From Leadbettera azotonutricia ZAS-9 (GTDB lineage: Bacteria > Spirochaetota > Spirochaetia > Treponematales > Breznakiellaceae), in NCBI RefSeq assembly GCF_000214355.1, contig NC_015577.1:1054001-1118000 (forward strand): DNA of 64,000 nucleotides, read 5' to 3'. Position 1 is the stretch's first letter; the number at the start of each line of letters is the position of its first letter. Below, piece after piece: positions 12,486 through 59,478 of this stretch. The translations under genes and the position numbers were made by a program. The notes under the pieces are model-generated. The model ran no database searches and had not been told where the DNA came from. It saw only the letters and a program-made list of their open reading frames with translations.

Positions 12486-12536
12486 TCATCTTATCTGATG
12501 AATTTGCCGAATTAAATTCATCTTATCTGATGAATT
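12486..12536. promoter_or_regulatory. Pair of operator-like palindromes, one helical face
   Basis: The sequence TCATC-TTATCT-GATGA occurs twice, at 12486-12501 and 12519-12533, exactly 33 bases apart (about three helical turns). The second copy extends to AATTCATC (12515-12522) and GATGAATT (12529-12536) around the same TTATCT centre. Duplicate palindromes at a helical interval look like a dimer-binding operator. The only downstream gene candidate is the small membrane protein at 12747, with a 114-bp repeat inserted in between. The rest of the 12335-12566 interval shows nothing recognisable. Confidence 0.35.
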
Positions 12537-12566
12537 CAAAAATTACTGTTTTTTTGCGGGTTTATT

Positions 12567-12680
12567 CGTGGCGAGGGGGTTAATACCCCGCCCCTTGGGG
12601 CGGTTAAAAAGGTATTAAGCCCCGAGTCCAATTCCTTAAGAGAACAACATACCTCGCGGCTTGCCGCGGGGTTGTTGATT
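12567..12680 (+). repeat. 114-bp palindromic element, copy 1
   Basis: Identical base for base to 40450-40563, and related to a diverged copy at 41687-41800. It is preceded by TTTATT, as are the other two copies. It contains a large hairpin, TTAATACC / GGTATTAA enclosing CCGCCCC-TT-GGGGCGG, and a second hairpin, CCTCGCGGC-TT-GCCGCGGGG, flanked by AACAA / TTGTT. One reading frame (starting CGT GGC GAG) is open over all 38 codons; the other two contain stops. The hairpins with TT loops resemble ends of IS200/IS605 or REP-type elements, but no transposase lies in the window. It is in intergenic DNA here. Confidence 0.85.
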
Positions 12681-12699
12681 CGTGGCGATGTTGTTGATT
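12681..12699 (+). repeat. Collapsed tandem remnant of the 114-bp element
   Basis: Directly after copy 1, the first 8 bases of the element (CGTGGCGA) are joined to its last bases (GTTGTTGATT). This looks like a second tandem copy whose inside has been deleted, leaving only the ends. It supports the element boundaries drawn from the other copies. Confidence 0.55.
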
Positions 12700-40362: not shown

Positions 40363-40449
40363 GTTTTCCTCCTGACAGGATAAACATATTATGACTATAT
40401 TTTTAATTTCTTTGGAAGCCTGTTAGAATTAAAAAGGGCTGAATTTATT

Positions 40450-40563
40450 CGTGGCGAGGGGGTTAATACCCCGCCCCTTGGGGCGGTTAAAAAGGTATTA
40501 AGCCCCGAGTCCAATTCCTTAAGAGAACAACATACCTCGCGGCTTGCCGCGGGGTTGTTGATT
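40450..40563 (+). repeat. 114-bp palindromic element, copy 2
   Basis: Identical over all 114 bases to copy 1 at 12567-12680, and again preceded by TTTATT. Flanking DNA differs on both sides, so the borders are CGT at the left and GATT at the right. It lies between the promoter region of the protease gene and a 21-bp tandem repeat. Perfect identity of two copies 28 kb apart suggests recent movement or gene conversion. Confidence 0.88.
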
Positions 40564-40627
40564 CATTTTTTTGAACCCGGTGTTGATATTAAAAGGCCGG
40601 ATTGGGGTTTTGGAAGAGCCGGCTTTT

Positions 40628-40858
40628 CGTCTATTTGAGAGCCCGGTTCCTCTATTTGAGAAAATGGTTTCCCTGTTTTATAAACCGGTTTTTCTTCTTC
40701 ATAAAACCGTTCCTCTGTTTTATAAACCAGTTCCTCTTTTTAAGAAAGCGGTTTTTCTGTTTCAGGAATCGGTTAGTCTTTTTTACGAACCGGTTACACT
40801 TTTTGCGGATCCATTGGCTCTTTTTTATGAACAGGTTTCTCTTTTAACAGATCGAGCG
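40628..40858 (+). repeat. Eleven-unit degenerate 21-bp tandem repeat
   Basis: Eleven consecutive 21-base units with a pattern close to CCTCTTTTTTATAAACCGGTT. Because 21 is a multiple of three, two forward frames stay open; one reads as heptads of the form (P/S)LFYKPV. The open frame at 40571-41122 begins with TTG right after the 114-bp element, has no ribosome site, and its last third is antisense to the well-supported gene at 40976. I therefore list it as a repeat and not as a gene. The interval 40363-40975 holds no other confident gene. Confidence 0.8.
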
Positions 40859-41473: not shown

Positions 41474-41659
41474 ACTTGTATCCTCCGATGGTACCATGTA
41501 CCTGAATTTTATATTATTAAAATACTCATATATTTAAAAAAAACAAAGCGAATTTTGCAATTTTTTTATTTTTTTTATGCCTAAATTTCTATTGACTTCT
41601 ATAGGAATTAGTCTAACTGTTAACTATTTATTCACTAAACTACTCAAGGAGAAACCAGG

Positions 41660-41926
41660 ATGAAAAAGGGGAAACTATTTTTTATTCGTAGCGAGGGTAC
41701 ATACCCCGCCTCTTGGGGCATTATAAAGGGTATGTACCCGAGTCTAATACCTTTAAAGAACAACCATACCCCGACCGCTCTGCGGTGGGGTTGGTTGATT
41801 GGGGTCATTGTATTATTGTCTTTGGGAGGATGTTTGATGACTCCCAAAGTATTTGACGATACTCTATGGTATATACCGTTTAAGGCTCAAAACACACGGA
41901 TTGACTTTGTTCCCTTTGAAGACTGA
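41660..41926 (+). CDS. Small lipoprotein with an in-frame 114-bp element inserted in its signal peptide
   Basis: An 88-codon reading frame with AAGGAG 8 bases before the ATG. Codons 1-9 (MKKGKLFFI) and codons 48 onward (GVIVLLSLGGCLMTPK) make a perfect lipoprotein signal peptide with lipobox LGGC when joined directly. Between them lie exactly 38 codons contributed by the 114-bp palindromic element. The original product would be about 50 residues. As it stands the hydrophobic stretch follows 47 residues of new sequence, so export and lipidation are doubtful, though an uncleaved or internal signal is possible. The mature part is TPKVFDDTLWYIPFKAQ and is not recognised. Confidence 0.65.
   Translation: MKKGKLFFIRSEGTYPASWGIIKGMYPSLIPLKNNHTPTALRWGWLIGVIVLLSLGGCLMTPKVFDDTLWYIPFKAQNTRIDFVPFED
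41687..41800 (+). repeat. 114-bp palindromic element, diverged copy 3, in frame inside a gene
   Basis: Same length, same TTTATT flank and same GATT end as copies 1 and 2, but with many substitutions. The first hairpin's outer stem is GGGTACATACCC / GGGTATGTACCC here against TTAATACC / GGTATTAA in the others, and the second hairpin is CAACC..CCCC..ACCGC / GCGGT..GGGG..GGTTG. The left part is 4 bases shorter and the right part 4 bases longer than in copy 1. Only the first frame is open, and the host gene uses it. Confidence 0.82.
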
Positions 41927-58530: not shown

Positions 58531-59376
58531 ATGGCTAAAAAACGCCTCCTTGCGGCAGCATTCTTCATTCTTTCCCTCCCCCTTTTTGCCCAAAGCGGCC
58601 TTAAAATCACTGTGGAAGAAAAGGACGGCGCCCTTACCATCATAAGCTCCCAGGGAAGCGTCAAAGAGCTTGTCATCCCCGGCGCCATTAACGATATGCC
58701 TGTTACTGCCATTGGCGAAGGGGCCTTTACCCGCAGGGGCCTTGCCAGCGTGGTCATTCCCGACAGCGTGGCCGAAATCGGCGCCCAGGCTTTTTCTTTT
58801 AACGAGCTAAGCACCCTGGTCATCGGGAATAACGTGACCACCATAGGCCAAAAGGCATTTTTCTCCAACAGGCTCGAGGCTGTCACCATAGGAAACGGGG
58901 TCACGGCTATAGGGATGGGGGCCTTTGCCTCCAATAACCTTGCCGAAATCGCCATACCAGAATCGGTTACCGATATAGGCGCTTACGCCTTTTTTTACAA
59001 CAAGCTCCGCACCCTCCGGATACCCGACGGGGTTGCTTCCCTGGGGGAAGGGGCTTTTTCCACCAATATGCTCCATACCCTGGTCATCGGGGGGGCGGTG
59101 GCCAAGGTGGGGGACGGGGCCTTCTACAATAACCGTCTCACCAGCATCACCATCCCCGCCAGCATCACAGAAATGGGCAAAAAAGTCTTCGAAAGCAGGA
59201 TAACCAGGAAATCCTCCCAGCCAGTAGTGGATTATGTGGACGATAAGGGGGCTGTGCTCTATACTACGGCCAATAATTTCGACACCTACTACAGTTCCAC
59301 CGGCAACAAGAGCGGAAAATACACCTTTACCCGTGAAGAAGGCTGGAAGCTGGAAGAGCCGGCAAGCTCGCCTTAA
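58531..59376 (+). CDS. Secreted leucine-rich repeat protein (BspA/LRR_5 type)
   Basis: A 281-residue protein started at the ATG at 58531 with AAGGA 7 bases upstream. A signal peptide (1-21, ending LPLFAQ) is followed by about seven 23-residue repeats of the BspA type: IGEGAFTRRGLASVVIPDSV, then IGAQAFSFNELSTLVIGNNV and so on. Such proteins are common in treponemes and often mediate surface binding. The last 60 residues (VVDYVDDKGAVLYTTANNFDTYY) are a separate tail shared by treponemal LRR proteins. It is monocistronic, between two terminator/promoter sites. Confidence 0.85.
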   Translation: MAKKRLLAAAFFILSLPLFAQSGLKITVEEKDGALTIISSQGSVKELVIPGAINDMPVTAIGEGAFTRRGLASVVIPDSVAEIGAQAFSFNELSTLVIGNNVTTIGQKAFFSNRLEAVTIGNGVTAIGMGAFASNNLAEIAIPESVTDIGAYAFFYNKLRTLRIPDGVASLGEGAFSTNMLHTLVIGGAVAKVGDGAFYNNRLTSITIPASITEMGKKVFESRITRKSSQPVVDYVDDKGAVLYTTANNFDTYYSSTGNKSGKYTFTREEGWKLEEPASSP

Positions 59377-59478
59377 GGAGACGAGCCTGCTGTTCCTGCA
59401 AGGCGATTGTATTCGGGGCAAACCCCTCGGCACGAACAATGGGGAATTAATTTTTTCGCTTTCCCGCCTTCTACCCAC

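Follow-up and report, generated by a model that had tools for sequence, protein, structure and literature searches.

A dispersed two-hairpin element in frame within a predicted lipoprotein signal peptide of Leadbettera azotonutricia, and related insertions in Treponema-like bacteria

The window (the whole stretch of DNA analysed, 64,000 nucleotides of the Leadbettera azotonutricia ZAS-9 genome) contains a short open reading frame without a match in a Pfam search, whose features are listed in Table 1 together with other copies of the repeat that interrupts it. The initial annotation had proposed that bases 41687-41800 are a mobile element that contributes 38 codons in frame, and this is borne out by the dispersed copies of the sequence and by the boundaries that these copies share. 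Excision at the family's own boundaries leaves 50 codons (MKKGKLFFIGVIVLLSLGGCLMTPKVFDDTLWYIPFKAQNTRIDFVPFED) and restores, as had also been suggested, a lipoprotein signal with an LGGC lipobox. The de-inserted N-terminus (MKKGKLFFI/GVIVLLSLGGC..., the slash marking the junction) possesses a basic n-region, a hydrophobic core, the lipobox and a Shine-Dalgarno sequence, all features used to recognise lipoprotein signals. The start codon and Shine-Dalgarno sequence are untouched by the insertion, in agreement with the annotation. The insert has a single stop-free frame in its orientation, encoding the stretch RSEGTYPASWGIIK..., and extends the n-region from approximately 9 residues to approximately 45 in the 88-residue form, with positive charge still located beside the core.

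Table 1. Features of the interrupted reading frame and copies of the element in the window.
Feature	Position in window	Strand	Remarks and basis
Shine-Dalgarno sequence AAGGAG	41646-41651	+	8 nt ahead of ATG at 41660; sequence
88-aa ORF (50-codon lipoprotein-like ORF plus 38 element codons)	41660-41926	+	stop codon 41924-41926; translation
Target hexamer TTTATT (codons Phe-Ile), retained 5' of the insert	41681-41686	+	TT(T/G)ATT also precedes other copies
Mobile element, 114 nt, open in frame 0, TTGATT end (Leu-Ile)	41687-41800	+	repeat comparison, covariance model
Left hairpin (approximate limits)	41689-41746	+	fold z -4.8; covariation
Right hairpin ACAACCATACCCCG...GGGGTTGGTTG (approximate limits)	41760-41797	+	fold; covariation
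Hydrophobic core and lipobox GVIVLLSLGG-C	41801-41833	+	translation; null test
Remainder of predicted mature lipoprotein, 30 codons past Cys	41834-41923	+	translation
Sister copy, A type, with target hexamer, apparently intergenic	40444-40563	+	covariance model
Sister copy, A type, with target hexamer, apparently intergenic	12561-12680	+	covariance model
Decayed family copy, near tRNA genes	59357-59440	-	covariance search, 26.8 bits, E 3e-4

When the host genome (3,855,671 bp, a single contig) was searched with the window insert, 13 matches were found, itself included (12 further), and the A-type copy at 40444, which is 78% identical to the window insert, gave 32 matches. Nine A-type copies are 99-100% identical, and the genome contains approximately 17 full-length copies. 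The covariance model scores the window copies at 41681-41800, 12561-12680 and 40444-40563 between 129 and 132 bits. Copies are alike over TT(T/G)ATT/CGTNGCGAG...GGTTG(G)TTGATT/ and divergent beyond these ends, and the boundaries are therefore fixed independently of the host gene. The element forms two near-terminal hairpins and has no terminal inverted repeats; an extra small hairpin is present in longer copies. In a first alignment analysed with RNAalifold, 8 of the 20 base pairs show double changes, and in a larger alignment fitted to the model, in which 96.4% of cells are paired, compensatory changes are observed in 15 of the 20. Infernal searches revealed the family in the genomes of 27 of 59 relatives, and carriers identified by name include Treponema vincentii and Treponema socranskii, besides termite-gut MAGs. 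Carriage by phages was considered and rejected, the exact element pattern being absent from IMG/VR. A literature search that took in few subscription papers yielded no account of a family of this kind in Treponema. Coding selection on the element was considered and rejected, as differences by codon position (628/487/554) show no excess at third positions. Since the family lacks a coding signature, the element codons are regarded as passengers, and the 38 codons of the window are not conserved protein sequence.

Some further repeats are found around the copies. Directly after the copy at 12561 lies CGTGGCGATGTTGTTGATT (12681-12699), which resembles a second copy with an internal deletion, and the TTGATT end of the element seems in this case to be usable as a fresh target. 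Another dispersed sequence, CATCTTATCTGATGAATTCAAAAAT, is located beside several element copies (window positions ~12519-12543; also at L110 and L113). The region at ~40600-40850 of the window is of low complexity, with degenerate short repeats that read as KPV or LFYxPV-like motifs in translation.

Treponema-like bacteria repeatedly gain protein sequence from mobile DNA, as in-frame copies in other genes reveal. The in-gene reading frames considered here (L095, L217, L208, L357, L427 and L385) were chosen with domain or orthologue support after de-insertion, and counts of in-frame copies are not an unbiased sample, because early screening sought open frames. For example L095, which lacks a Pfam match and which we read as GNAT-like, contains DVKTG-FI(44 codons)E in contrast to DxKTG-S-IE in its relatives, the 44 codons being absent from these exactly at Ile-Glu. 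The insert in a serine acetyltransferase (L217) is absent from 12 aligned congeners, and in an FGE-like protein of genome G048 (L208) the copy is located directly past the signal peptide. In PurL (L357, JAITEW010000172.1) an in-frame copy occupies the linker between synthetase and glutaminase within a 1336-aa open frame, and further in-frame copies are found in an AraC regulator (L427) and a Mutator transposase (L385). There is one clear out-of-frame case, a 115-nt copy that breaks a PDDEXK_2 (PF12784) gene (L194, G037:C1:2065272-2065392).

Forward-orientation copies are present in five further signal peptides (L345, L341, L219, L159 and L216), and most of the in-frame copies listed here, in genes and in signal peptides, have uninterrupted relatives. 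The lipoprotein L345 reads MFRKNALI-insert-RNAFSLFVVFTLVMGVLLFAGC, as opposed to MFRKNALLRNTFSLFAVFALVIGALPLVGC in genome G189, with near-identical flanking DNA. Three relatives of L341 are intact, as are the paralogues of L159, and relatives of L219 possess uninterrupted lipoprotein signals. L337 (JAITBE010000053.1) appears to be another lipoprotein with a double insertion, in which a first element and a truncated second one in tandem lead into the lipoprotein core LAGLLLIAALVVLCSGC. The initial annotation had seen in the window a clear picture of the gene before and after insertion; such a picture is provided by sister copies in signal peptides with intact relatives, but not by the window locus itself. 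Hydrophobicity is kept at these sites because TTTATT encodes Phe-Ile in frame and the element end encodes Leu-Ile. Around 1% of the target hexamers in the host genome lie in signal peptides by a fixed rule; under a rule that differs somewhat, about 6 of 157 full copies do so, and an enrichment of element copies in signal peptides is suggestive only. On a more speculative view, to which we give rather little credence, the Phe/Leu-Ile target and the Leu-Ile end would make insertion into signal peptides self-repairing, exported proteins would repeatedly receive new n-regions, and the mover would be a non-Y1 single-strand or RNA-based one.

We consider it quite probable that the window locus represents the insertion of a mobile element, moving in a manner similar to IS200/IS605, into a small orphan lipoprotein gene. 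A non-autonomous two-hairpin element would have entered this gene at codons 8-9, immediately 3' of TTTATT, through the joining of a specific strand of replicating DNA to a short TTGATT-like target that is not duplicated. A further TTGATT would be supplied by the right end of the element itself. Only the basic n-region would be lengthened, with lipobox and hydrophobic core left intact, and the 88-aa precursor would presumably be translated and still exported. It is somewhat unlikely, in our estimation, that the gene is real but altered or broken by the insert, through restart at an ATG or TTG in the element or failure to export the long precursor. An in-frame ATG is indeed present inside the window insert, and L216 and L159 each have an ATG within the element ahead of a short signal peptide (MTRVLF.. 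and MRRVFLFV..), making an internal start within the element a real alternative in these two cases. However, the original start in the window still has its Shine-Dalgarno sequence, and L345 likewise retains its own start and Shine-Dalgarno sequence.

The mode of insertion resembles that of a known class of transposons. TT(T/G)ATT is kept at the left flank and repeated at the right end of the element, with no target duplication, and the homologue of the FGE-like gene L208 in genome G088, a 91%-identical relative, has an unfilled site in which TTGATT occurs once. With strands assigned from a replication terminus near 2.3 Mb, as located by GC skew, 15 of 17 full-length copies (p=0.002) and 31 of all 39 copies (p=3e-4) are on the lagging-strand template strand; the bias is weaker for partial copies (16/22, p=0.05), and was not evident by eye in genome G037. 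ISDra2 integrates 3' of TTGAT on the lagging strand without target duplication (PMC8612924), and the Treponema element works like such an IS200/IS605 single-strand transposon. We do not file it as a member of that family because neither a Y1 transposase in the host genome nor a Y1 locus with matching ends in relatives was found. Searches for Y1 transposase (PF01797) at E<=0.001 gave no match in the host genome or in the element-bearing genomes G026, G037, G040 and G048, and the element ends are absent from the Y1 loci examined in relatives. Among the loci examined, none was a longer element that shares these ends and encloses a gene, and the only indication of TnpB in the host genome is a single weak domain match, below the family cut-off and with no element ends around it. 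The mover is presumably an HUH-type enzyme. The Y1-rich genomes G027, G023 and G013 (61, 28 and 22 matches) contain no element copies or weak ones only; Y1 load and element load therefore do not go together.

It is unlikely that the element moves instead via RNA, by reverse transcription in the manner of a group II intron. The conserved single-stranded sequence and covarying stems are compatible with a functional RNA, the Y1 enzyme was not found in several hosts, and some group II introns likewise favour the lagging-strand template. Against this, the presence of TTGATT at both target and right end without duplication is the pattern of ISDra2, and Rfam contains no family that matches the element.

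A further question is whether the 50-codon reading frame was a gene at all. No homologue of the 50-aa protein was found in 59 relatives, 120 family genomes and GTDB contigs, and the empty site that the initial annotation proposed to find in an orthologue from a close relative was sought in the same collections and not found; nor was any relative encountered that has the locus and lacks the lipoprotein. Weak matches (L048-L051) were inspected as possible orthologues and dismissed as chance. The neighbouring 173-aa gene and dapL, used as markers of synteny, occur together in no locus examined outside the host genome. As no homologue or empty site is available at this locus, we infer its earlier state from the element boundaries, the rarity of the signal and the sister copies, and the 50-codon frame, which is too short for a coding-potential test, was probably a working gene. 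Had the element instead fallen in intergenic DNA beside a coincidental lipoprotein signal, the lack of homologues would be expected, and copies in this genome are mostly intergenic or in doubtful reading frames. We nevertheless regard this as unlikely, since comparable insertions are known at the signal peptides of conserved genes and the signal itself is rare. A fixed rule for lipoprotein signals (Shine-Dalgarno sequence, basic n-region, hydrophobic core and lipobox) was applied to both strands of 184 kb of the genome; the de-inserted site is the sole strict lipoprotein signal in this sample, and 0 of 321 other TT(T/G)ATT hexamers lie in one. The rule was drawn up after the site was known, so this null test gives a measure of rarity and not an unbiased p-value, and a chance origin of the de-inserted signal is unlikely.

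It is scarcely credible that the ribosome bypasses the insert to yield the original protein: strong hairpins, and identical ATT codons where take-off and landing could occur, would suit such a mechanism, but these codons are accounted for by the mechanism of insertion, and bypassing would not call for the open, in-frame state of the in-gene copies with the best support.

The Rickettsiales are the best-known source of in-frame palindromic elements. In a Treponema-wide family with exact boundaries, the young identical copies and the empty sites in relatives provide datable gains of protein sequence from mobile DNA, and a reason why these can be tolerated is suggested by the insertions in signal peptides. 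The missing mover of the element is a separate question from that of protein gain.

Several known systems share features with this family. The element resembles IS200/IS605 transposons such as ISDra2 in favouring the lagging strand and in lying 3' of a short, fixed target that is not duplicated; the target pentanucleotide is nearly the same as that of ISDra2 and the insertion geometry identical, but neither tnpA nor tnpB is present between its ends. The PATEs of Haloquadratum are derived from IS200/IS605 and have near-terminal palindromes without terminal inverted repeats (PMC3119063), as does the Treponema element, which differs in its repeated in-frame insertion into genes and in its host, where searches revealed neither a Y1 transposase nor a full-length IS whose ends match. 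ERIC and Correia/NEMIS are small mobile elements that may be fused in frame to ORFs, some being predicted to add signal-peptide motifs, but reports on them describe duplicated targets and terminal inverted repeats (PMC2229807), neither of which is seen here. Rickettsia palindromic elements (RPE) and their Wolbachia counterparts are dispersed, hairpin-forming sequences of ~100-150 bp that add internal in-frame codons to unrelated protein genes (PMC10969869, PMC2229807). The Treponema element is likewise short, hairpin-forming and dispersed, and as a palindromic repeat in frame in several unrelated protein genes with element-free homologues it corresponds to the pattern by which RPE are recognised. 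It differs in its phylum, its two separate hairpins, its strand bias and its defined target TT(T/G)ATT without duplication, and several of its insertions are in signal peptides, whereas RPE are found mainly in housekeeping enzymes. Likened by description, the Treponema family appears to be a real spirochaete counterpart of RPE that has been captured in export signals repeatedly, as an analogue and not as a member.
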